Virus record (IMG/VR): IMGVR_UViG_3300009183_000197
Span: 1-36,797 of that record
Length of the DNA stretch: 36,797 bases
DNA from: a virus
Direction: 5' to 3' (one strand)
Shown here piece by piece: positions 2,275 through 36,797 of this stretch. The notes beneath the pieces were generated by a model. It was not told the origin of the DNA, did no database searches, and worked only from the letters and a program-made list of their open reading frames with translations. Positions within the stretch are counted from its first letter, which is position 1, and the number at the start of each line of letters is the position of its first letter. The position numbers and the translations under genes were made by a program.

Positions 2275-2300
2275 GATTTTGTTGACATTGGGCCACTAAT

Positions 2301-2555
2301 ATGGCCCAATCTGCAATCGGAATCTTTGTCGGTCTACCCCGTGCTACAATTGAACAATTGCGGGATAAGGCAGTTGCATTAATACTCGAAGGCAAAACCA
2401 TAATGTCTTACGGAGATGGCGTCACAAACGCCAGCAAGCAGTTTGCCCTTCCCCCTGCTGACATGCTAAATGAGGCAAAATATGCCCTTTTACTGCTAGA
2501 CGGGGGTCGAGTCAGAGGATTGAGAACCAATTACAACCGACAAGTTGATAGATGA
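2301..2555 (+). CDS. gpW-like head completion protein
   Basis: An 84-residue protein located directly before the portal gene, the place lambda W occupies. It has a helix followed by a short beta hairpin (LILEGKTIMSYGDG) and a second helix (PPADMLNEAKYALLLL), then a basic arginine-rich tail. This matches the size and helix-hairpin-helix build of gpW-family proteins, which fill the portal channel and make the platform for head-tail joining. The start codon lies exactly 13 bases after a TTGACA (2282-2287). The stop overlaps the portal start (ATGA). Family assignment rests on length, build and synteny. Confidence 0.58.
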   Translation: MAQSAIGIFVGLPRATIEQLRDKAVALILEGKTIMSYGDGVTNASKQFALPPADMLNEAKYALLLLDGGRVRGLRTNYNRQVDR

Positions 2556-5227: not shown

Positions 5228-5248
5228 CAACCGAACATTTTTCGGTTG
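5228..5248 (+). other. Hairpin between protease and scaffold genes
   Basis: An 8-bp perfect stem CAACCGAA/TTCGGTTG around a 5-base loop, just after the protease stop. No T-tract follows, so it is not an obvious intrinsic terminator. The 3' arm runs into TTGACA (5246-5251), which lies 30 bases before the scaffold ATG. It may be an RNA-processing or stability element. Confidence 0.5.
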
Positions 5249-5281
5249 ACAATAACTAAATAATAAGCACACTTATAAAAC

Positions 5282-7587: not shown

Positions 7588-7617
7588 TTGACAGCCCCCA
7601 AAAAGGAACCTTAATAT
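7588..7617 (+). promoter_or_regulatory. Putative sigma70-type promoter of the capsid gene
   Basis: TTGACA at 7588-7593 is followed 18 bases later by TAATAT (7612-7617), or 17 bases later by TTAATA. Initiation would fall near 7624, giving a leader of about eight bases before the capsid ATG at 7632. It lies immediately after a terminator. The -10 box is A/T-rich and its exact position is uncertain. Confidence 0.6.
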
Positions 7618-8606: not shown

Positions 8607-8634
8607 GTTTTAGTTGACAATTGTCCAGCATGAA

Positions 8635-8865
8635 ATGGCATTTCCAGATTATTCTATTGTTCATTATGAACGCCCAGACCCAGTAACGCCAGCAAATACA
8701 ATTGTTGAGCGTCCATTGATTTTTACAAGAGTGACAGAGGCTAGAACATTTTATAATTATTGCGTATCGCAAAATTGGCGTTGCTGGCTTTTTGAAAAGC
8801 CACAGCCCAACTTATTTCATAGAAACGACAGCATTACTGTTGTTCCATATGTGAATCAAGACTAA
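8635..8865 (+). CDS. Small protein with the MA[FY]PDYSIV module (copy 1)
   Basis: A 76-residue protein starting MAFPDYSIVHYERPDP. It consists almost only of a module shared with the proteins at 8888 and 9469: an initial beta strand ending in YSIV, a helix (TRVTEARTFYNYCVSQ) and a closing strand plus loop (RCWLFEKPQPNLFHRNDS). ATG 8635 was chosen because it aligns the paralogues; an upstream TTG at 8614 coincides with TTGACA. The start lies 15 bases after TTGACA and directly downstream of the capsid terminator. The domain is not recognised. Position after the capsid gene suggests a decoration or accessory virion protein, as inference. Confidence 0.7.
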   Translation: MAFPDYSIVHYERPDPVTPANTIVERPLIFTRVTEARTFYNYCVSQNWRCWLFEKPQPNLFHRNDSITVVPYVNQD

Positions 8866-8887
8866 TAGTTGACATATCTCAATATTC

Positions 8888-9097
8888 ATGGCTTACCCAG
8901 CATATTCCATTGTTGTCATCGAAACGACAGTAAACAATGTCACAACCGCAGAAACTGCTATTTTTCAAAAGAATGCAGACGCTGTAATTGTGTATGAAAA
9001 TGCAATTAAGATTGGTAAAAGAGCATTTTTATACGAACAGCCAATTCCGACAAAGTTTCGTAGAAAAGACAGTCAGCCGTTTAGCACTGGTAATTAA
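8888..9097 (+). CDS. Small protein with the MAYPxYSIV module (copy 2)
   Basis: A 69-residue paralogue of the preceding gene and of the N-terminus of the 659-residue protein at 9469. It shares MAYPAYSIVVIE, a central helix (AVIVYENAIKIGKRAF) and the ending LYEQPIPTKFRRKDS. The start codon is exactly 13 bases after TTGACA (8869-8874), which itself follows the stop of copy 1 directly. No SD sequence is visible. Function unknown; probably a small virion component. Confidence 0.72.
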   Translation: MAYPAYSIVVIETTVNNVTTAETAIFQKNADAVIVYENAIKIGKRAFLYEQPIPTKFRRKDSQPFSTGN

Positions 9098-9135
9098 CGC
9101 TTGACATACACAAATTTAACCCAACAATACACCAC

Positions 9136-9447
9136 ATGTCACTAAGATTCTCATTTTTAATCACAATTGATTCAAAGGGTACTCCTTCTGCAAAGATTTA
9201 CAAGAAGGAAAATGCACAAGATGGATTAAACGACTTTTCCAAGGCAAGGGAGCAGGGCAAGGAAGCGTACTGGTTCCATTCCCCAAAGGAGGACAAGCGT
9301 TGCAAGTCTGAAGTGGCAAGACAAGAACAGGCGGATGCCGTGACTGGGATTTCAAAAGAAGTCACTGAAGAGATTAAGGTTGTCGAGTCAACTGGAACGA
9401 CCAATAAGCAACCAAAGTTTGCTTCTGGCCTTACAGACTTAGATTAA
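9136..9447 (+). CDS. Small protein, divergent member of the same module family
   Basis: A 103-residue protein whose first ~60 residues resemble the module of its neighbours more loosely: an opening strand FSFLITIDSKG, a helix (GLNDFSKAREQGKEAYWF) and SPKEDKRCKS. The GKEAYWF segment aligns with GKRAFYF in the protein at 9469. The C-terminal ~45 residues are polar and likely disordered. TTGACA lies 29 bases before the ATG, with AACAAT 16 bases later as a possible -10, which would give a nearly leaderless mRNA. The product is not recognised. Confidence 0.62.
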   Translation: MSLRFSFLITIDSKGTPSAKIYKKENAQDGLNDFSKAREQGKEAYWFHSPKEDKRCKSEVARQEQADAVTGISKEVTEEIKVVESTGTTNKQPKFASGLTDLD

Positions 9448-9468
9448 AGTTGACAATAAGCCACGAAT

Positions 9469-11448
9469 GTGGCTTATCCAGATTATTCTATTGTCATCAT
9501 TTCCGTCACCGAGGGTGGCGTAACGACTGATTACGCTAAGTGCTTTTTCAACAACGCCCTTGCGGACAAGTATTACAAGCAAGCGGTTTCAGAAGGAAAA
9601 CGAGCATTCTACTTTGACCGACCAACCCCGTCAAGATTTGAAAGAAATGACACACAAAAGTTGGTTGTAAATTCTCAAAAGAACCTTGAACTTCAACCAG
9701 TAACAACTCCATCTGCTTCTGGAGACCAAGGAAGTACAATAACTGTAAAAGAAGCATTTTCTGTTGCTACAAGCATTATTGTTGAAAGCAACCTCAAGGT
9801 AATTGAAACTATTCAAACTGCAAGTTTTCAGGCTGGAGAAAAGGTTTATGAAATTCACGACAATCTTTTTACTAAGATTAGAAAGTTTATTGGATTTGAA
9901 TACAAGCCTTATAATACAATAGCGGCTGAATTAACTCATACAAACAAAAGAATTGTATTAAGACATAATGGCTCTGGCTTTTTTCTTGCACCAACAATTA
10001 CAAAACTGTGGCCCGACAAGGATGAATATGTTGACCAACAACCAGTTCCTTTTTTAATTGATATTGAAGGTGCTATGGTTGGAGATGGTTTAAAGACTGA
10101 GAGAAGAACATATAACGGTATGCAGTCTGACACTGGGGTTGTCTCTTATTTTTATCAATATTTGCCAGAAGATACTCTTCTTTTTGAAACTATTGATTTC
10201 AAGTTCCTTTCAGATGGAGCGGGATGGTACACAAGATTAGCAAATGGCGGCGGCGGTGGCGGTGGCGGCAATAGTTATTCTAATTGCGACCAAGAAGGTA
10301 CACTTTATCAAGAAGAAATTGGTAATGCCCTGAACAGCGGACTCACCAACGATGAGGGTGTATATATTCCATTTGTAAACGGAAATGCTACAACATTAAT
10401 TAAGGCTGATGGAAAGTGCGGAACAAGCCAAGAACCATCAGTTAAGTGGATGGAGGCTGGAGTTGCTATCACTGAAGACTTTTATTATGTTTACAAACAT
10501 GACGGAAATGGTGGTTATTCTAGGGAATTACAGCCAAATGTTGCTGACCCAGAAATTCCAACTCCAGAAGACGGACACGACCCAGAAAAGCAATGCCCTC
10601 CAGCGGGAGATATTGCTGGAGAAGAGAGAGAATACACTCAACAGGAAGTCATTGGCAACGATGAGCGTCTTGGTGAATACAGGTATAATCCAGTGGTTCA
10701 TATTAAGGTTATTATGAATGATGGTGAATGTGGAACATATGTGGAAAGTGAAAGAGACGAGTTTGTTGAGGCTGGAATATTTATCAAAACAAACTATCAA
10801 GAATCAACTGGAAAGACTTGGATAATGGTTACTGATGTAAATGGAGGATGGGGTGCTTATGAGGCTTTTGACACTACGGAAACCGATGGTAGCAATGTTC
10901 CAGACCCAGAACCGCCACCAGAAGAACCAACCGTAGTTGAACCACCTCCTCCTCCTCCAGAAGACCCTTGCACGGGTGGAAATCCAAACTCCCCAACAGG
11001 AACATATAGAAGAAAGCCCAATGGAGACTTCTGGGGCAAGTTCGCACTTGGTGGGCTCAAAAGAAAGGTTACAATTGGAGTTCCAGCGGGATACCAATCT
11101 TCTAATATTGCTGGGACTGGAACTGGAACAACTTGGACTTTCTGCACTGGACAGAGATGGATGGATAGACAAATTTCCAAGGGTTCATGTGAGGGCTGGT
11201 CAAACGAGCCAAACGCAAGTGAATCAACATGGCAACAGCCAGCAGGAGCGGATTGCCCATCTTTCCCCGCTGGGCCAGCCCTTATGGGTGGACAGGGTGG
11301 AGTTGCAAATTCAAACGAAGAAGTCATAAAGGTTTTTTACAAACTTGAGGCAAAGGTAAATGGTGTTCAAACTTTTTCTACCAAGCAGTTCTTCCCAAGG
11401 CATGACGGCCATGGCAATGTCGCTTGGGTTCCTTATAGCAACAACTAA
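9469..11448 (+). CDS. Large modular structural protein with MAYPDYSIV head domain
   Basis: A 659-residue protein starting at a GTG 13 bases after TTGACA (9450-9455); this start aligns it with copies 1 and 2. Residues 1-62 are the shared module (YSIV, GKRAFYF, PTPSRFERNDT). A helical part (~80-150) and a beta-rich part follow, then a Gly8 linker near residue 260. Two internal repeats come next, about 104 residues apart, each with DG[KE]CGT and an [ME]EAG[VI]xI segment (residues ~314 and ~418). A proline-rich linker (~485-500) leads to a final cysteine- and tryptophan-containing domain. The build suggests a capsid-anchored or tail-anchored decoration or adhesion protein. It ends just before a strong terminator. 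Function is inferred from architecture only. Confidence 0.7.
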   Translation: MAYPDYSIVIISVTEGGVTTDYAKCFFNNALADKYYKQAVSEGKRAFYFDRPTPSRFERNDTQKLVVNSQKNLELQPVTTPSASGDQGSTITVKEAFSVATSIIVESNLKVIETIQTASFQAGEKVYEIHDNLFTKIRKFIGFEYKPYNTIAAELTHTNKRIVLRHNGSGFFLAPTITKLWPDKDEYVDQQPVPFLIDIEGAMVGDGLKTERRTYNGMQSDTGVVSYFYQYLPEDTLLFETIDFKFLSDGAGWYTRLANGGGGGGGGNSYSNCDQEGTLYQEEIGNALNSGLTNDEGVYIPFVNGNATTLIKADGKCGTSQEPSVKWMEAGVAITEDFYYVYKHDGNGGYSRELQPNVADPEIPTPEDGHDPEKQCPPAGDIAGEEREYTQQEVIGNDERLGEYRYNPVVHIKVIMNDGECGTYVESERDEFVEAGIFIKTNYQESTGKTWIMVTDVNGGWGAYEAFDTTETDGSNVPDPEPPPEEPTVVEPPPPPPEDPCTGGNPNSPTGTYRRKPNGDFWGKFALGGLKRKVTIGVPAGYQSSNIAGTGTGTTWTFCTGQRWMDRQISKGSCEGWSNEPNASESTWQQPAGADCPSFPAGPALMGGQGGVANSNEEVIKVFYKLEAKVNGVQTFSTKQFFPRHDGHGNVAWVPYSNN

Positions 11449-11467
11449 GGGGTAGACACCAAACAAG

Positions 11468-11493
11468 GGGTGGCAGAAATGCCACCCTTTTTT
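11468..11493 (+). terminator. Rho-independent terminator abutting a start codon
   Basis: Stem GGGTGGCA/TGCCACCC with a GAAA tetraloop and a TTTTTT tract (11488-11493). The next gene's likely ATG (11494) follows the last T directly, so that gene must be read by transcripts passing the hairpin or by initiation inside it. Confidence 0.88.
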
Positions 11494-11814
11494 ATGTCTT
11501 TATGGGATGAAATATCTGCTGACGGTAGCCAGTTCTTAAGTGAATTTGGAAGGTCAATTACATTTAGAGGGATAAGCGTTGTTGCCCTTGTAGACACCAA
11601 TCCAATTGAACAGGCTCTGGAAAATGGAGGATTTGTGTATACCTCTGGATACCGTGTTCGCATGCTTGCTGTGGCTGGCTCTGTCTACGCAGTGACCCCT
11701 CCAAGGCACGGAGAATCTATGGCGGTATATGGACACCCATACACCATTAAACAGGTCACAGTGCGGCCTCCAAGCCCTTGGATTGATGTGTTCGTCATCG
11801 CCTCTAATCAGTAA
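11494..11814 (+). CDS. Putative head-tail connector (lambda FII-like position)
   Basis: A protein of about 106 residues starting MSLWDEISADGSQF. Its size and beta-rich C-terminal half (VRMLAVAGSVYAV, HPYTIKQVTVRPP, WIDVFVIAS) fit small head-closure or head-tail joining proteins such as lambda FII, and it stands at the head-to-tail transition. Alternative in-frame starts at GTG 11470 and ATG 11479 would put the initiation site inside the terminator hairpin. The stop overlaps the next start (TAATG). Family call is tentative. Confidence 0.5.
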   Translation: MSLWDEISADGSQFLSEFGRSITFRGISVVALVDTNPIEQALENGGFVYTSGYRVRMLAVAGSVYAVTPPRHGESMAVYGHPYTIKQVTVRPPSPWIDVFVIASNQ

Positions 11815-12650
11815 TGGCATCATCGACAGTTACAGTAGAAGCATTTTACCCAGTTCCCGTTGAGACAATAAGGGAATTTAGAAGACTTGGTCACATATTC
11901 TTAAGGGAACATTCCGTAAGCATGTGCCATGACCTTATTGGGGCATCATATCCACTAGCGGCTGGTTCATTTGATAAAGCAATTGGAAACCAGCAAAATG
12001 TAGCAAATGGTGCATTTAAATCAATCAGAGCCAGAACACTGGCTAACTGGTTGTTTGATAAGGACTACCAATCTGCCGAGCAATATAAATTTAACGGATT
12101 TAGTCCATATATAAATCAATTATATAATCAAAAAGAATGGCTTAGACTTGAGGCCGTGTTCAAGGGAGCACCTCACAACATTCAGCCAGACGGGAAGTCT
12201 CCAGTTGAAGTTGCCGACACGGCAACGCTTGAGATGCTTTATGATTGGAAAAAGCGTAGAGGGAGAGCCACCCAGAAGAAGCCAATTTATATTAGAAACT
12301 GGAAGTCAATAGACGCCGTAAAGAATAATAAATCAATATTCTCCAGAGTCGGAGTGATGGCTGGCGGATGGCTAAAGGCCGCAAAAATGCTTGGAAACAA
12401 GCCAAGGGCAAATACAAAAGGTTTTTATAATCAAATTTGGTTGCAAAAGGGGGGTCTTGGAAGTGCTATGATGACTGAAACTGAGGGAGAAATAACATAT
12501 ACATTCTACAATGAATATGCTAATATTGGCGGATACATGACCAAGCCCGCCGCCAAGGCGGCTATCAAGGCCAGACATGCATTATGCGATGCTGAGTTCC
12601 CGTTGCTCTGGGACCAAACGATGAAAAACACGGGCTATTCCCCCACTTGA
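11814..12650 (+). CDS. Putative tail completion / minor tail protein (gpZ position)
   Basis: A 278-residue protein translationally coupled to the connector gene. The N-terminal helix region (PVETIREFRRLGHIFLREHS), a central basic part (WKKRRGRATQKK) and a C-terminal segment with alternating Ala/Lys (KPAAKAAIKARHAL) are visible; no motif is decisive. Position between connector and tail-terminator candidates corresponds to lambda gpZ, which completes the tail end that joins the head. The stop TGA lies within a TTGACA (12647-12652). The role is inferred from gene order. Confidence 0.45.
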   Translation: MASSTVTVEAFYPVPVETIREFRRLGHIFLREHSVSMCHDLIGASYPLAAGSFDKAIGNQQNVANGAFKSIRARTLANWLFDKDYQSAEQYKFNGFSPYINQLYNQKEWLRLEAVFKGAPHNIQPDGKSPVEVADTATLEMLYDWKKRRGRATQKKPIYIRNWKSIDAVKNNKSIFSRVGVMAGGWLKAAKMLGNKPRANTKGFYNQIWLQKGGLGSAMMTETEGEITYTFYNEYANIGGYMTKPAAKAAIKARHALCDAEFPLLWDQTMKNTGYSPT

Positions 12651-12665
12651 CATAATTACAATAAT

Positions 12666-13094
12666 ATGAGCGTTAAAAGAGCAGTAGAATGGAACTTCAA
12701 GACAAGGCTGGCAGAAGAGTTTGCTGGTTGGCCGATTTCGGTTAATTTGTTTGAGGCATCCAGACAGGAGGAAAGGGTTCTGCCATGCGTAATACTAAGT
12801 GCCAATAGCGTAGCGTTGGCCGTAGACCACCCCGATAACATGGTTAACTTTGATGTAGACATGGATTTAGTTATATTAACCAATCTTGATGAAATAAATG
12901 TAAACCAGCATAGAGACATTGTTGACAAGTGCTTGAGAAAGATGAATGAGAAGATTACAAGAACAAAGTCTACAATTACATATCTTTACCTTTATTCAAC
13001 GACATACAGGGATACTTCTGAGGAAATAGCAGACAGAAAAACTGGGACGATTGTATCATACAGGGTAACTTGTAATTATAACCCATTTACTTAA
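12666..13094 (+). CDS. Putative tail terminator (gpU-like)
   Basis: A 142-residue alpha/beta protein starting MSVKRAVEWNFKTRL. The first helix, the strand LPCVILSANSV, the strand VDMDLVILTN, the helix HRDIVDKCLRKMNEKI and the last strands TYLYLYSTTYRD and GTIVSYRVTCNY give the alternation seen in tail-terminator proteins (lambda gpU group), which stop tail tube growth and bind the connector. The start is exactly 13 bases after TTGACA, whose TGA is the stop codon of the previous gene. Confidence 0.52.
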   Translation: MSVKRAVEWNFKTRLAEEFAGWPISVNLFEASRQEERVLPCVILSANSVALAVDHPDNMVNFDVDMDLVILTNLDEINVNQHRDIVDKCLRKMNEKITRTKSTITYLYLYSTTYRDTSEEIADRKTGTIVSYRVTCNYNPFT

Positions 13095-13117
13095 AGTTGA
13101 CAGCCAGCCATTCGCAT

Positions 13118-19592: not shown

Positions 19593-19626
19593 TAAATTTA
19601 TCGTTTGTTGACATGAATCAATAATT

Positions 19627-21627
19627 ATGCCATCTGGACCACCACTAACACCACCATCAAGGGTTCCAAGTCTTGTTCTTTGGGTTAACTCATCGCTCAA
19701 CAGAATGATGGCTTCCTTTAATGCAGAAGCATCCGAAGCAAGCATTGTCTTGAAGCAGGGGGACTCAATTGGAGTTGAAGTCCACCTTCTAACAAGTTCA
19801 AGCAATGGAACAATTGAGGAGTATCAAATGCCAGTGGCGGGCGGACTCACTCTTGCTATTGGGAGGATTGACGCAACGCCAACATCTGGAGACTTTAAGT
19901 TATCTTATAATGCCGAACTGACATCGGTGCTCCCATATAACGCAACCGCTTCTCAATTGCAAACGGAACTTAACGCTCTACCATCAATAGCCGCTATTGG
20001 CGGCGTTGTTGTGGTTAAGAATGGGACGCTATTTAGAGTAATATGGAATACGCAATGCGTTGTTCCACACGATTTAACAGTCAATAGAAACACGCTATAT
20101 CCTACCTCTTCTATTGCAATTAGCAAAGTCACGGATGGCTCATCTTCTGCAAATCAAGTCTTGCAGTTGCATGTAAAACAGACGCCAGTAGCAAATATAA
20201 CTAACTTTGAAGACCAAGACCCGTCTGTTGTCTACTGCGACCAGTTAAAAGATGCCTCTTTTAATGGAGACATTAAAATATGGAGACTTGACACCCCGAT
20301 AAAGCCAAAAGGAGGGTCGTTTGTAATTTCATTTGTAGATGGTGGCAACAACTTCTCTACATCACCAATATCAGTAGAAGCATCCGCATACGAGGTCAAG
20401 TTGGCACTGGTTGCAAAACTTAACACATCTTGGGAGGTCACACAAAACTCAAAATACTCTTGGGATATTTCGGTCTCAAGGTATACTGTTTCAAATCTAT
20501 ACATCAACAGTAGTGCCGTAATATCGTTTTCTGCAAAGTATGGAAATCTTAATCTTAACACGATTCAAGTTGAAGAATTACTGTCTGGAAACCCATCATC
20601 AATTGCCATATTAGAGTTAGAACTTGATTCAAGTGGAAGTAAAAAGACCCTCTATCAAGGTTCATGCACAATAATAAATGACCTTATAGACTCAGATTTG
20701 TATACAACAGTTGCGTGGGGAGACCTTATCCCAGCCGATTCAGTTGTAAGATATGACACATCTCAGTCATTAACAACGCCTCAGAAACTTCAAGCAAGAA
20801 CAAATATTGGTGCTATTGATAATGCGTCAATAGCGGCACTTCAGACAAAAGACACAGACCTTGAAACAAGGCTTTCTGGCGTTGAAGCATTTTCACTTGA
20901 CTCAAATAAGTTAGCATCAATAAACGCAAACACAACACTTACTGGCACGAACCCTGTTGTTTCAAATTCACAGTTACTCACATCACTCGCTGGCGTACCG
21001 CCACTAATTCATTATCATGTAATTTCTGATGTTGCTGGGTTGAGAAATGAAATTGATGGCAAGAGCGACATTACGCACACCCATGAGTACGCTCAGATAA
21101 TTGGCCTTACAAATCAACTTTCGTTAAAAATAAACACAACAACAGCAATGTCGCTTTTTGCGACAATAAGTCATACGCATAATTCTTTCACAAATTTAAC
21201 AGTAGACAATCTTGTTGTATTTGGAAATATTACAACTCCATTATTATATTCTTCACAAATAAATAATTCTGGTTTGATTAATACCAGTCAAATAAATGTT
21301 GGAACTAATACAAGCAGTACAGTTTCTAATATTTATGGAACATTAAATGTTATTGCAAACGGGGCTCTTGAGGGAGCCGTGGTGTGCAGAAATCTTACGG
21401 CCTCAGACAAGGTTTCAGCAAATATAATTGCTTCAGACACATTTTACAGCCCCCTTAACAATCAAACATTTACTTTATTAGATGTTTTTCAGTATTATCA
21501 ACACGCACCTTTGACTGGAAGTCCACCCCCTCAAACATCTGGAGATTACATAGAGGTTAACATTGGTGGTGCAACTCAAGCGGCTGGCGGAAAGCGGTTT
21601 AGAATACCCTGCTATCAAATATACTAA
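19627..21627 (+). CDS. Tail fibre protein, first of two paralogues
   Basis: A 666-residue protein. Residues ~1-370 are clearly paralogous to the N-terminal ~365 residues of the next protein: QGD(S/G)xxVEVH, a GGVV segment, LYP, the T(D/E)GSSSxN(Q/E) segment, KYSWDIS and LYQGSCTIINDLIDSDLY. This region probably attaches the fibre to the tail. The C-terminal part has fibre features including ITHTHEYAQIIGL and TISHTHNSF, the His-x-His motifs that bind metal along some trimeric fibres. The start is exactly 13 bases after TTGACA (19608-19613). Confidence 0.72.
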   Translation: MPSGPPLTPPSRVPSLVLWVNSSLNRMMASFNAEASEASIVLKQGDSIGVEVHLLTSSSNGTIEEYQMPVAGGLTLAIGRIDATPTSGDFKLSYNAELTSVLPYNATASQLQTELNALPSIAAIGGVVVVKNGTLFRVIWNTQCVVPHDLTVNRNTLYPTSSIAISKVTDGSSSANQVLQLHVKQTPVANITNFEDQDPSVVYCDQLKDASFNGDIKIWRLDTPIKPKGGSFVISFVDGGNNFSTSPISVEASAYEVKLALVAKLNTSWEVTQNSKYSWDISVSRYTVSNLYINSSAVISFSAKYGNLNLNTIQVEELLSGNPSSIAILELELDSSGSKKTLYQGSCTIINDLIDSDLYTTVAWGDLIPADSVVRYDTSQSLTTPQKLQARTNIGAIDNASIAALQTKDTDLETRLSGVEAFSLDSNKLASINANTTLTGTNPVVSNSQLLTSLAGVPPLIHYHVISDVAGLRNEIDGKSDITHTHEYAQIIGLTNQLSLKINTTTAMSLFATISHTHNSFTNLTVDNLVVFGNITTPLLYSSQINNSGLINTSQINVGTNTSSTVSNIYGTLNVIANGALEGAVVCRNLTASDKVSANIIASDTFYSPLNNQTFTLLDVFQYYQHAPLTGSPPPQTSGDYIEVNIGGATQAAGGKRFRIPCYQIY

Positions 21628-27222: not shown

Positions 27223-27535
27223 GACTATAATTGCTACGCAATCCGTTTTTCTTTTTGCATTTGGGCTTGCGGGGGTGATGGCTACTTCTTATGTGGTTGC
27301 TGGATTTAACGCATTAAGAGATGTGAACAGTGCAGTGGCTATCGTTACCGACTCTGGCATTACGACAGAAAATGGAACTGTAAGTGTTGAGGCAGTTCGG
27401 GGAATAATTAATAACTTTCAATTGGTCGGCATATCCGTATCTTCTTTTGGAGCCATTGTCTTTACGGCAACTTGCATAAGACTATACAATAGAAACAAAC
27501 TTAAATCCAAACCAACAAAGAAGAGAAGAAGTTGA
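27176..27535 (+). CDS. Two-span membrane protein, possible second holin or antiholin
   Basis: A 119-residue protein overlapping the holin candidate by 47 bases. It has a basic N-terminus (MKKKQKEVK), a first span at ~22-44 (SVFLFAFGLAGVMATSYVVAG), an extracytoplasmic loop of ~45 residues, a second span (LVGISVSSFGAIVFTATCI) and a basic C-terminus (KLKSKPTKKRRS), predicted with both ends inside. Holin/antiholin pairs are often encoded side by side, so this is a possible partner; no family is recognised. Its TGA stop lies within TTGACA at 27532-27537. Confidence 0.55.
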   Translation: MKKKQKEVKNNGSVSETIIATQSVFLFAFGLAGVMATSYVVAGFNALRDVNSAVAIVTDSGITTENGTVSVEAVRGIINNFQLVGISVSSFGAIVFTATCIRLYNRNKLKSKPTKKRRS

Positions 27536-27576
27536 CACCCTTCAAAGTTTGTTGGTTTTGTGTATTATCGACAAAT

Positions 27577-27625
27577 AGACCTGTGGTGGGTCTTTTACGC
27601 CTTGGACATCCAAGGCGGTTTTCTT
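27577..27625 (+). terminator. Double hairpin terminator ending the late region
   Basis: First a small stem AGACC/GGTCT (27577-27593) with TTTT, then a perfect 8-bp stem CGCCTTGG/CCAAGGCG (27598-27605 and 27610-27617, loop ACAT) followed by GTTTTCTTT. It lies between the late operon and the convergent minus-strand gene and can probably act from both sides. Confidence 0.75.
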
Positions 27626-27945
27626 TAAATCTGTCTTATGACAGTAAAGGCATCGCTGGTGGCGTTATAAGCCGCCCCAAGGCTGTTTGCGATAGAAGCC
27701 TTAGCCGTAGAGGCTAAAGCCTCCCTTAACTCATTCTTGGCCTGTTCGTGCTGTATAAACACAAACTCATGGGTGTCGCTTGACGGTTCGTTGGTTTCTG
27801 ACACCCTGTTAAGGACAATTGCAGTATCTTCAACCTTTTCTGCCCTGTAATGCAAGTTAGCCAGTTGCACCTTGGCGTTGTCCAATTCAACCATAGCGTT
27901 GCACACTTGGTCAAATGCCTTTCTAATGACTTCTTTGTTACTCAT
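27625..27945 (-). CDS. Hypothetical helical protein on the minus strand
   Basis: A 106-residue protein, the only convincing minus-strand gene. It starts MSNKEVIRKAFDQVCNAMVEL and is almost wholly helical (AKVQLANLHYRAEKVEDTAIV, EQAKNELREALASTAKASIAN), probably a helical bundle or coiled-coil dimer. No HTH is evident. TTGACA is exactly 13 bases before its ATG, and a second TTGACA lies 29 bases before it within a motif repeated on the opposite strand. Standing alone and divergent from the accessory operon, it may be a regulator or an early protein, but its function is unknown. Ends in a convergent terminator region. Confidence 0.68.
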   Translation of the reverse strand: MSNKEVIRKAFDQVCNAMVELDNAKVQLANLHYRAEKVEDTAIVLNRVSETNEPSSDTHEFVFIQHEQAKNELREALASTAKASIANSLGAAYNATSDAFTVIRQI

Positions 27946-28061
27946 ACCATTGGGTATGTGTCAATCGCTTGGGTTGTCAAGCGTATATTTTAACAATCGG
28001 TTTACTGTGTGCAAATAATGGTGCTTGACAACGCAAGGGGTTCAGTATACATTGCCCGTCT
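27946..28061. promoter_or_regulatory. Divergent regulatory region with mirrored 15-base motifs
   Basis: Between the minus-strand gene and the rightward gene at 28062. The motif GCTTGACAACGCAAG is at 28023-28037 on the + strand and GCTTGACAACCCAAG at 27968-27982 on the minus strand, pointing away from each other. Each holds a TTGACA (-35-like) and an internal CTTG-N6-CAAG inverted repeat, so a dimeric regulator could cover both -35 boxes. The TTGACA-to-ATG distances are similar (31 and 29 bases). On the right, TACATT 17 bases downstream may be a -10, predicting initiation just at the start codon. Confidence 0.65.
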
Positions 28062-28484
28062 ATGAATAACGAAAAACTTGATGCGTCAATAGCGGCATTG
28101 CTCAATCAGGATAAACCGTCTGTTCCGCCAACCGTTGAACCAAATGTGCAACCGAGTACGGTAGATTATCTTCGTAACAGGGATGCCCTTGTTCAACTCA
28201 AAGAGCGTGAGTCAAGCCTCCCAAGCAGTTACGGGGACAGCATGGGTTGGATTTTGTATTGCCTTTGGGCAATCCCGATTTCTGCCATAATGATGATTGG
28301 TGGTCCGATTGTTGGACCGTCAATTGCAATTTTTGTTATTCTTTACATTGTTAATGGTTGGCTTAAAGACGGAGAAAAACTTGTTAAAGAAGAAGAGGAG
28401 GCTCGCTTTGGTAAAAGAAAACGCAAAAAGGTATTTTACAGAATTAACGAAAAGGGCGAAACTGTGCCAGAGGATTCTCCTTGA
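28062..28484 (+). CDS. Two-span membrane protein
   Basis: A 140-residue protein that opens the rightward accessory operon. Residues 1-58 are polar with VPPTVEPNVQPS, then two hydrophobic spans at ~62-82 (GWILYCLWAIPISAIMMIGG) and ~84-99 (IVGPSIAIFVILYIV), then a charged cytoplasmic tail (KLVKEEEEARFGKRKRKK). The predicted mRNA has almost no leader. The stop TGA is within TTGACA at 28481-28486. No family is recognised; an early membrane protein could affect superinfection or host physiology (inference). Confidence 0.62.
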   Translation: MNNEKLDASIAALLNQDKPSVPPTVEPNVQPSTVDYLRNRDALVQLKERESSLPSSYGDSMGWILYCLWAIPISAIMMIGGPIVGPSIAIFVILYIVNGWLKDGEKLVKEEEEARFGKRKRKKVFYRINEKGETVPEDSP

Positions 28485-29612: not shown

Positions 29613-29913
29613 TTATACTCCGAAGACAGACGGAGAAACGCTTCTTAGACATCAAATCGCAAGAGTCAAGGCTCGCATTTTAAAACTTGAAAAAGAAGGC
29701 AAGGAATACAAAAGCCCAATTGTATCAATTCCTTATGACCAAGCAATTGACCTCGTAAAGAGACATAAGGCTCGAAAGGCAGTTGTTGAAACTCTCAACA
29801 ATCTTGCTGGAGAACTGTCTTTTCAACTTGACGAAGAATATGTTTCTTACAATGTCACTGCTTTAAGAAACCTTGCCAACAAGATTTTAATAAAAATATC
29901 TGAAATCAAATGA
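29602..29913 (+). CDS. Small helical hypothetical protein
   Basis: A 103-residue protein starting MPYNYTPKTDGETLLRHQ, 11 bases inside the end of the previous gene and overlapping the next start (ATGA). Charged helices dominate (RVKARILKLEKEGKEY, DLVKRHKARKAVVETLNNL). The close coupling to the IbrA-like gene suggests a shared operon. No family is recognised. Confidence 0.55.
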   Translation: MPYNYTPKTDGETLLRHQIARVKARILKLEKEGKEYKSPIVSIPYDQAIDLVKRHKARKAVVETLNNLAGELSFQLDEEYVSYNVTALRNLANKILIKISEIK

Positions 29914-30998
29914 GTAGATACAAATCCCCAATGGGGGTAAATGTCCTTACCGCCGCAAAGGAAAGGATACACCATATTTATGACATACATGATACGCCAA
30001 TTGTATTATTTTCTGGAGGAAAGGACTCACAGGTTCTCGCTCACATTGCTTGGGATGTTGCACAAGAGCGGGGTCTCAATTTCATTAATTGCGTCTTTAG
30101 ACATGATGAATTTACTTTGGGTAATACGGTGGACTTTGTCCGTCATTATGCGTCTTTCCCTTGGGTGCGTATGCATCACCTTCTTATACCAGAACCCTCT
30201 CTCCGCTATGTCTTTGACAAACCCATTGAATATCGTCAATGGGACTTCAAGAACCGTGAGACGATGCGTCCAATCCCAGATTATTCCATTCGGCCAACGG
30301 AAGAGATTTGGAACCTTGAATGGTGGGCAGATGAAATTGAGCGTTATCAGTGCCAGTGGTTCACTGGCAAGGTAGCCCAAATGAATGGAATCCGTGCATC
30401 GGAGTCTCGATTCCGCTGGCGTGGTTCGGTCAATAAACTTGTAGAAAACTACATTAACAAGTCAAACGGGCTTAAGAGTGCTACACTCTGCAAGCCAATG
30501 TATGACTGGGAAGAGCGTGATGTACTTAAATATCTTTACGATAATAAACTTCCGTATAGCAAAGTATACGATTGGCAACTCTATGCCAAAATGGACTTAC
30601 GAACATCTCCTTTCCTGCATCCAGAAAAAATTAGACACCTCAAGAAACTTCGTCAAATTGACCCGCAGTTCTACGACCAACTGCTTAAGATTTTCCCAGA
30701 CCAAGCAACCCATGATAGATACTCCGAGTCCCGCAATGACGCTGGTGTTCAAGAAAAGTATGGCAAGGATTGGACTGGTATCCACAAGTATATAGTTGAA
30801 CATTACGAAGAGGGCAAGTCCAGAGACTTGGCCCTCCACAGGCTGACGCAAATTGGAAAATTGAGCGAGTCTGGAAGAAACAAGGAGATGAACAATTATC
30901 CGTTTGACTATGTTCTTAAATATTTCGTAAGAGGACAGATATGGAAACTCCTTCTTCCGTATCGAAAGAGCCAAAAGGAATGGACAAAACTTTTATGA
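29910..30998 (+). CDS. IbrA-like PAPS-reductase-fold PP-loop protein
   Basis: A 362-residue member of the phosphoadenosine phosphosulfate reductase superfamily. The ATP-binding PP-loop SGGKDS is at residues 35-40, followed by HDE near 65 and by KPMYDWEERDVLKYL at ~190-205, typical of the family's C-terminal half. It lacks the ECGLH cysteine of true PAPS reductases and the paired cysteines of APS reductases, so sulfonucleotide reduction is unlikely. Together with the ParB-like gene next to it, it matches the IbrA/IbrB pair known from Escherichia coli prophages, where the pair activates expression of other prophage genes. A nucleotide-activating or DNA-modifying role is also possible. Confidence 0.75.
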   Translation: MSRYKSPMGVNVLTAAKERIHHIYDIHDTPIVLFSGGKDSQVLAHIAWDVAQERGLNFINCVFRHDEFTLGNTVDFVRHYASFPWVRMHHLLIPEPSLRYVFDKPIEYRQWDFKNRETMRPIPDYSIRPTEEIWNLEWWADEIERYQCQWFTGKVAQMNGIRASESRFRWRGSVNKLVENYINKSNGLKSATLCKPMYDWEERDVLKYLYDNKLPYSKVYDWQLYAKMDLRTSPFLHPEKIRHLKKLRQIDPQFYDQLLKIFPDQATHDRYSESRNDAGVQEKYGKDWTGIHKYIVEHYEEGKSRDLALHRLTQIGKLSESGRNKEMNNYPFDYVLKYFVRGQIWKLLLPYRKSQKEWTKLL

Positions 30999-31714
30999 CC
31001 AACACACCACGCACACTCGAGCCTGTCGAGAATATCCAGTGGATTGATTGCGACAAACTCGTAGCCAATCACTATAACCCAAACAGGGTTATGAATGCAG
31101 AAATGAACCTCATCGAGCGTTCTATCCTTCTGACTGGATGGATTCAACCGATTCTAGTCAATAAGAACAATGTCATTATTGACGGCTTCCATCGCTGGAC
31201 GCTCAGTCGCCTTTCCCCAAGCCTTCGCTCAAAGTATCATGGCAGAGTTCCCTGTGCCATCCTTGACATAACGGATGTTGAGGCTATGATTATTACGGTT
31301 AGAATTAATAGAGCCAAGGGTACGCACCTCGCTTTCCGCATGAGTGAGTATGTTCGTGAACTTGTTGAAACACACAAAATTCCCATGGACAAACTGGCTA
31401 CCGACATTGGTGCTACATTTGACGAAATTCAACTTTTAATGAGGGCGGATATGTTTGAAGCCAAAGATGTCCAAAACTGGGCATACTCTGAGGCTTGGTT
31501 TCCAGCAGAATCTGGAAGAACCAGAATACCAACACTTTGGGACTTTGTTGACGGCAAGGAAGTAATTGAAAATAATAAGAAACAAAACGAAGACTCTCTT
31601 AAGTGGTATTCCGAAATGGAAGAGGCAACCGAGGGTGGCATCGGCCTTGAGAAGGTCGTTGAAAAGGTGAAAAAGAAAAAGAAGAAGGAAAAGACAGAAG
31701 AGGAATCTGCTTGA
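30995..31714 (+). CDS. IbrB-like ParB-domain protein
   Basis: A 239-residue protein with a ParB N-terminal-like domain: IQWIDCDKLVANHYNPN at the start, SILLTGWIQPILV, IIDGFHRWTLSR (a ParB-type DGxHR motif) and an MIITVRINRAKGTH segment. ParB-like domains of this kind bind or cut nucleic acid or use CTP. The C-terminus is a Lys/Glu tail. ATG 30995 is in an ATGA overlap with the IbrA-like stop; an earlier ATG at 30941 would add 18 residues. The adjacency and order copy the ibrA-ibrB arrangement. The stop TGA is in TTGACA at 31711-31716. Confidence 0.75.
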   Translation: MTNTPRTLEPVENIQWIDCDKLVANHYNPNRVMNAEMNLIERSILLTGWIQPILVNKNNVIIDGFHRWTLSRLSPSLRSKYHGRVPCAILDITDVEAMIITVRINRAKGTHLAFRMSEYVRELVETHKIPMDKLATDIGATFDEIQLLMRADMFEAKDVQNWAYSEAWFPAESGRTRIPTLWDFVDGKEVIENNKKQNEDSLKWYSEMEEATEGGIGLEKVVEKVKKKKKKEKTEEESA

Positions 31715-34182: not shown

Positions 34183-34229
34183 ATATTTTCGCTTGACAGA
34201 CGCTAAAAAATGTGCATTCTGTATGTCCA

Positions 34230-34499
34230 ATGACGAATACCCCAGAAACCATCGAATCACTCAAGGCTGAAAACGCCAAACTTGAAGAAAAGTGCGTCCA
34301 CATGAGACGCAAGATTCAAACTCTAATTTTACGAGGAAGCAAACTTATTGATGGGTATCAAAAGAAGAAGGTTCCAGAACAGGTAGACATTGACAAGTGG
34401 TATTCTTCATTCCTTATGCTTCCAACATACACTTGGGAAGAAAGCCAAGAAGCCAACAAGTGGGTCGATGAATTTATGAAATCCGACCGATATATTTAA
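34230..34499 (+). CDS. Small coiled-coil protein
   Basis: An 89-residue protein starting MTNTPETIESLKAENAKLEE with a heptad-bearing first half and a helical tryptophan-containing second half. Two starts are possible: ATG 34230, 31 bases after TTGACA (34193-34198), or GTG 34212, exactly 13 bases after it as at several other genes. One of a series of small coiled-coil proteins at the end of the window. Confidence 0.58.
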   Translation: MTNTPETIESLKAENAKLEEKCVHMRRKIQTLILRGSKLIDGYQKKKVPEQVDIDKWYSSFLMLPTYTWEESQEANKWVDEFMKSDRYI

Positions 34500-36268: not shown

Positions 36269-36506
36269 GGCGATTGAAAACGCCAACAAGGTCATTGAGT
36301 TAAGAAACGAAAACACCATTCTCAAAGATGATTTAAAGAAACTTACCGAATGGTCTGATGGTGCAAAGCGTCTATTGGATAATTATGTTAAATTAATATT
36401 TGACAAGGACGACCGTTCTTACAAGATGGAGCAAGAGTTGAAATCTGCTAAGGCTGAAATTAACAGGCTCAAGTCAATAGAAGTAACTAATAGACCAAAT
36501 GGGTAA
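36237..36506 (+). CDS. Small coiled-coil protein
   Basis: An 89-residue protein with NANKVIELRNENTILKDDLK and YKMEQELKSAKAEINRLKS heptads. The first ATG (36237) overlaps the previous gene by 32 bases; ATG 36258 (MKRKAIEN) is equally possible. Overlaps the next start by eight bases. Confidence 0.53.
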   Translation: MTYPDHPMKRKAIENANKVIELRNENTILKDDLKKLTEWSDGAKRLLDNYVKLIFDKDDRSYKMEQELKSAKAEINRLKSIEVTNRPNG

Positions 36507-36797
36507 GTGTGGATACAAGCAAGGTGAAACATTGCTGGCCGTTCGCATCGCCCACAAGAAAGGCATTACGCTTCAAGAACTTAGCAGGGTTACGGGTAAA
36601 TCGGTTCATGCAATAAGGTCTTCTGGTCGTCTTGTTGGCATAAAACTTAAGTCAGAATTTAATAAAAAAGAATACCGAAGCCTTAAAGATAAACTTTATA
36701 ATATAGACACAGGTCAATATACTGCTGGCGAACTTGCTCAAATCCTTGACACTGGGAAGGGGACTGTATACTCTCTATGCACAAGATACGACCTTCC
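36499..36797 (+). CDS. Helix-turn-helix protein (partial at window end)
   Basis: An open frame of about 99 codons from ATG 36499 running past the window end. It starts MGKCGYKQGETLLAVR. Two HTH-like stretches are visible: GITLQELSRVTGKSVHAIRS near residue 25-45 and YTAGELAQILDTGKGTVYSL near 74-93. Probably a small DNA-binding regulator; its end is not visible. Confidence 0.55.
   Translation, partial: MGKCGYKQGETLLAVRIAHKKGITLQELSRVTGKSVHAIRSSGRLVGIKLKSEFNKKEYRSLKDKLYNIDTGQYTAGELAQILDTGKGTVYSLCTRYDL

Follow-up and report, generated by a model that had tools for sequence, protein, structure and literature searches.

A bipartite element, GTTGACA-N5-C[A/C]A-N4-Y-R, recurs upstream of genes in a group of uncultured phages and probably acts as a phage-specific promoter, mainly of late genes (those for virion and lysis functions), with position 19, a purine, as its start point. 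Positions are counted from the first T of TTGACA, CMA stands for C[A/C]A, and sites of the form (G)TTGACA-N5-C[A/C]A are termed L-type. Sequence statistics establish the element, its spacing, its distance classes and its pyrimidine-purine (YR) signature, as well as the preceding terminators and the above-chance hairpin pairing; from these, we infer promoter function and late timing. The element appears to be placed so that the 5′ end of the mRNA coincides with the start codon or precedes it by a few bases, an arrangement consistent with a host group in which Shine-Dalgarno (SD) sequences play a minor part. More tentatively, and short of what we would call probable, it may define a promoter class with its own geometry that is read by a phage-encoded or phage-modified polymerase, makes leaderless late mRNAs common, and doubles as one arm of a start-codon hairpin switch.

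The window, which is the whole stretch of DNA analyzed here, is a 36.8-kb phage contig that encodes terminase, portal, head, and tail proteins. Among cultured phages, its head and portal proteins are closest to those of Verrucomicrobia phage P8625 and Akkermansia phage Moulinsart (23 to 30% identity), and its host therefore probably belongs to the Verrucomicrobiota, a phylum that includes SD-scarce species (PMC10783764). A prophage search for the host across bacterial genomes gave no match. Since P8625 contains two TTGACA-N5-CMA copies and Moulinsart none, the element is not claimed for either of these nearest cultured relatives. Via the head protein, 21 related contigs were retrieved, giving 22 contigs and 459 crude open reading frame (ORF) starts when the window is included. 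The element statistics are based on 15 related phage contigs, with 11 contigs retrieved afterwards as a held-out set. The contigs are incomplete and akin to each other, so that the sites are not independent; gene starts were called by a simple rule, and the counted sites include some chance or coding matches.

TTGACA is the most enriched hexamer upstream of the 459 ORF starts of the 22 contigs (88 versus 8.0 expected; z of 28). SD-like motifs are unenriched upstream of starts in the same contigs (AGGAG, 3 versus 7.7 expected), in agreement with a preliminary description of this DNA, which had reported SD sequences to be absent. That description placed TTGACA 13 bases before the start codons at 2301, 8888, 9469 (GTG), 12666, 19627 and, on the minus strand, 27945, and 15 bases before those at 8635 and 13118. 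The hexamer is indeed present at every one of these positions, both 15-base gaps are correct, and TTGACA often contains, or closely follows, the preceding stop codon, as had been noted. This 13-base distance is strongly enriched (found at 6 of the 49 curated starts of the window versus 0.022 expected; binomial P of about 1e-13), and the window's 56 TTGACA copies include five of the form TTGACA-N13-ATG (1.0 expected) and two of the form TTGACA-N13-GTG. A distance of 13 is not general: among the relatives, the gap is 13 to 17 bases (mostly 13, 14, or 16) or at least 26.

The preliminary description did not include a second element, C[A/C]A, which lies exactly 5 bases past TTGACA (ACA in the variant at 12666). 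TTGACA-N5-CMA occurs 130 times in the 15 contigs, compared to 20.8 expected, ranking first among all hexamers, and this replicates in the 11 held-out contigs (55 versus 6.9 expected). The copies lie mostly on the coding strand, and a reversed-pattern control is rare. In the 34 short-gap sites first collected, the final A of C[A/C]A is invariant and the leading C is found in 29; some long-gap sites have no CMA. Nine matches close to where the portal gene ends (gap of 55) represent conserved coding sequence and were excluded from the profiles. Scanning viral contigs linked to the protein encoded at 2301 with a pattern that proved too strict gave no matches, and searches within a limited literature library found no description of the consensus GTTGACA-N5-C[A/C]A.

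Position 19 is a purine in 83 to 85% of the sites (82% of the held-out sites), and position 18 is a pyrimidine in about 70%. A YR step at 18/19 is present in 58% (held-out, 64%), compared to about 10 to 35% at neighboring positions, and is missing in 36 to 42% of the sites. From position 20 on, the G content of long leaders is 4.5%, down from 22.5% (P = 3e-14). Two classes of gap to the start codon are seen, 13 to 17 and at least 26, with few between; the held-out gaps are 13, 14, and 16, then none until 27. Together, the distance classes, the bias at 18/19, and the G drop point to position 19 as the likely transcription start (+1), its exact placement being read from base composition. Because the same protein families carry short or long gaps while their N terminus is unchanged, the +1 cannot be placed further downstream.

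With the +1 at the purine that follows the first T by 19 bases, GTTGACA would span −20 to −14 and C[A/C]A −8 to −6. A gap of 13 would put the +1 on the first base of the start codon, predicting a leaderless mRNA, whereas gaps of 14 to 16 would leave leaders of 1 to 3 nt and gaps of at least 26 would give G-poor leaders of at least 13 nt. Predicted leaders of intermediate length are rare, which is what one would expect if a start codon must either sit at the 5′ end or allow ribosome loading. The G-poor leader could instead reflect translation initiation, not transcription.

The sites assigned in the window are listed in Table 1. Orthologues of gene 2301 carry the element in 20 phage contigs. 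The site of the major head protein gene follows a terminator-like stretch, and the element is conserved at the head protein genes of the relatives. For the weak variant before ATG 5282, inspection of the orthologues indicates that in most of them position 13 is still an A and the predicted +1 falls on a YR step. Behind the second weak variant, a terminator-like hairpin (window 11470-11494) separates the element from the likely ATG 11494, and GTG 11470 is therefore probably not a start. The proteins of genes 8635, 8888, and 9469 begin alike (M/V-A-Y/F-P-x-Y-S-I-V), and similar repeated genes occur in the relatives.

Table 1. Predicted promoters, hairpins, and small RNA in the window
Position	Strand	Feature	Sequence	Predicted +1	Remarks
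2282..2301	+	L-type promoter, predicted leaderless	TTGACAttgggCCA	2301 (A of ATG)	From motif and distance
2287..2310	+	Start-codon hairpin, predicted in read-through RNA only			Arms 2287-2295 and 2302-2310; −14.3 kcal/mol
5246..5265	+	Weak L-type variant	TTGACAataacTAA		Before ATG 5282; by inspection
7588..7607	+	L-type promoter, major head protein gene	TTGACAgccccCAA	~7607	ATG 7632; predicted leader ~25 nt
8614..8633	+	L-type promoter	TTGACAattgtCCA	~8633	ATG 8635; terminator-like hairpin and T run just upstream
8869..8888	+	L-type promoter	TTGACAtatctCAA	8888 (A of ATG)
9450..9469	+	L-type promoter	TTGACAataagCCA	9469 (G of GTG)
9456..9477	+	Predicted start-codon hairpin	ATAAGCCAC-GAAT-GTGGCTTAT		−12.5 kcal/mol
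11453..11472	+	Weak L-type variant	TAGACAccaaaCAA		ATG 11494 probably the true start; by inspection
12647..12666	+	L-type variant	TTGACAtaattACA	12666	CCA or CAA for ACA in orthologues
13097..13116	+	L-type promoter	TTGACAgccagCCA	~13116	Small gene, ATG 13118
19608..19627	+	L-type promoter	TTGACAtgaatCAA	19627 (A of ATG)
27532..27551	+	L-type promoter	TTGACAcccttCAA	27551	No convincing ORF downstream
27551..27628	+	Putative conserved small RNA, ~78 nt			Terminator hairpin at end; −25.6 kcal/mol, z −3.4; aligned with four relatives
27945..27964	−	L-type promoter	TTGACAcatacCCA	27945 (A of ATG)
27945..27980	−	sigma70-like, GC-preceded TTGACA (27980-27975)		Same as L-type	16 bp upstream of L-type hexamer
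34193..34230	+	sigma70-like GC-TTGACA, not L-type			Likely start ATG 34230

Promoter function is supported by the surroundings of the sites, some of which adjoin intrinsic-terminator-like hairpins and one of which precedes a putative terminated noncoding RNA. Such a hairpin lies directly upstream of 23 of 100 sites, compared to 4 of 393 control starts and 19 of 3,000 random positions. At the putative small RNA, the predicted +1 is a Y-G step in five phages, and the terminator also serves the convergent gene 27625-27945; the window contains no match to an Rfam family. Of the 44 sites in the three longest contigs, 25 are located within the structural module and on the strand that encodes it, which fits late use. 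The preliminary description had left three options for TTGACA: a phage promoter element with very short leaders, a translation signal, or a regulator site. It is the first that the evidence favors.

The same hexamer also serves a second promoter type in these phages. Among GC-TTGACA sites without CMA, TATAAT-like hexamers (at least 4 of 6 matches) occur at a spacer of 16 in 29% and at a spacer of 17 in 24%, whereas behind TTGACA-N5-CMA sites 4-of-6 matches at these spacers stay at background (4 to 5%). GC-TTGACA at 28025-28062, at 34193-34230, and at 27980-27945 on the minus strand resembles ordinary sigma70 promoters with short leaders. For the second of these, the possible GTG start at 34212 proposed earlier probably gives way to ATG 34230. 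At gene 27945, the pair of TTGACA hexamers 16 bp apart recurs in the relatives G013 and G015. The L-type hexamer had been likened to a −35 box, and it does equal the −35 consensus and is used as such elsewhere in these phages. Nevertheless, the absence of a −10 at the usual spacing, already remarked upon, is confirmed for TTGACA-N5-CMA, whose sites thus fall outside the sigma70 type, defined by a TATAAT-like −10 at 15 to 19 bp after TTGACA. Initiation from a −35 box would also land inside genes whose N termini are conserved from the annotated start codon. That these sites are ordinary −35 boxes of host sigma70 promoters is thus highly improbable, and this assignment was rejected.

In part of the short-leader genes, N5-CMA may also act as the 5′ arm of a hairpin over the start codon. 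Across 62 short-gap sites, N5 pairs with the start-codon region beyond what N5 permutation yields (z of −5.5; 0/400). By subset, z is −4.6 in the 2301 family and −3.4 elsewhere, and it is weak (−2.0) in the held-out contigs alone; outside the 2301 family, hairpins of short-leader genes are mostly weak or none. As N5 lies upstream of the predicted +1, the hairpins would form in read-through RNA only. Read-through RNA from upstream would then be silent, and RNA from the gene's own promoter would be translatable. The T4 genes e, soc, 49, and I-TevI likewise have a hairpin over the translation start with a late promoter inside the 5′ arm; RNA made from upstream promoters has its start hidden, and the late promoters of gene e give RNA that lacks this arm (PMC3014915). 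The gene e geometry, with the start codon in a helix and the 5′ arm upstream of the gene's own start point, is found computationally in several genes here, chiefly of the 2301 family. T4 differs in its use of TATAAATA and SD-led translation (PMC3014915), whereas the phages studied here have another element, predicted leaderless mRNAs, and a regulation that we infer.

The hairpin pairing also bears on RNA processing as an alternative, in which a phage or host endonuclease would cut long late transcripts at Y-R after UUGACA-N5-CMA to yield leaderless mRNAs. Such cleavage predicts the same 5′ ends and spacing classes, and base pairing between N5 and the coding region implies selection on RNA that contains N5. 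However, 23% of the sites lie directly behind an intrinsic terminator, which few long transcripts should get past. One site precedes a short terminated RNA, and another precedes a minus-strand gene that also bears a sigma70-like box. We therefore regard processing as unlikely. We judge it just as unlikely that the element is the binding site of a phage transcription activator or repressor next to an otherwise unrecognized promoter. A conserved bipartite element would suit such a regulator, and these phages do conserve two-HTH and HTH proteins, but the YR start-point signature and the distance classes would be left unexplained, and no −10-like element is present at the usual spacing.

A role in translation initiation, in a host without SD usage, would agree with the lack of SD and with TTGACA as the strongest upstream signal. 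Yet the element lies anywhere from 13 to more than 40 bases before the start codon, and sites also occur directly behind terminators and, in a conserved case, before a noncoding terminated RNA. The suggested comparison of UUGACA with 16S rRNA gave no partner, as no 16S 3′ tail among 13 Verrucomicrobia-titled genomes contains the complement TGTCAA, and 16S pairing was rejected. In 12 Verrucomicrobia-titled genomes, the strict pattern is not enriched, with at most one copy in each, which led us to reject a general host signal as well. A translation signal is accordingly very unlikely.

For the phage-specific promoter that we favor, no RNA polymerase or sigma factor able to read the element was found in these possibly incomplete contigs. 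A search for PF00940 (T7-type RNA polymerase) matched 0 of 13 records from possibly incomplete contigs, its control likewise being without a match. Matches to sigma region 4-like HTH motifs fell mainly in terminase small subunits, the others being small regulators. A two-HTH family whose similarity to a D5-like regulator profile is weak is encoded in the window at 36499-36795 (cut at the contig end), with a further example at L154:19183-19933, and is present twice in G013 and G026.

Several known late promoters share traits with the element. Those read by phiEco32 gp36 and phage 7-11 gp47 also have a short phage-specific consensus 6 to 9 bp from the start point and serve late genes with the host core polymerase; they differ in sequence, being tAATGTAtA or GTAAtg-(16)-aCTA, and in that these phages encode recognizable sigma factors (PMC8948821), none of which was found here. 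The AR9 late promoters, AACA-(6N)-T[A/G], are likewise short and bipartite with a pyrimidine-purine start point, and some AR9 genes bear both an early and a late promoter, but sequence and spacing are different and AR9 encodes multisubunit RNA polymerases (PMC5312081). The T4-type late promoter TATAAATA, about 10 bp before the +1, is absent, and the position profiles are empty of it at −13 to −6. With sigma70 promoters, the element has TTGACA in common, although here the hexamer would lie at about −19 and C[A/C]A at −8 to −6, with no −10.

If the promoter reading is true, it would provide a readable map of late genes and transcript starts for a group of uncultured phages, and it would supply many naturally leaderless mRNAs from a bacterial phylum poor in SD sequences. 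The division of leader lengths into two classes, with a gap between them, would bear directly on the 5′ leader lengths that bacterial ribosomes accept, and the factor that reads the element, once found, could extend the known types of transcription specificity in phages.

Further features were noted in the window and the related contigs. An HTH protein adjoining the terminase genes (L157:3320-4057) has a strongly conserved central domain; its structure model (mean pLDDT of 56) gave no convincing match in the PDB or among viral models and, since the model is poor and the matches unconvincing, no role is claimed for it. One related phage contig carries a tRNA-Phe gene (L013:3666-3741). Lastly, PAPS-reductase-like and ParB-like genes lie adjacent to each other at 29910-31714 in the window and are conserved throughout the group.
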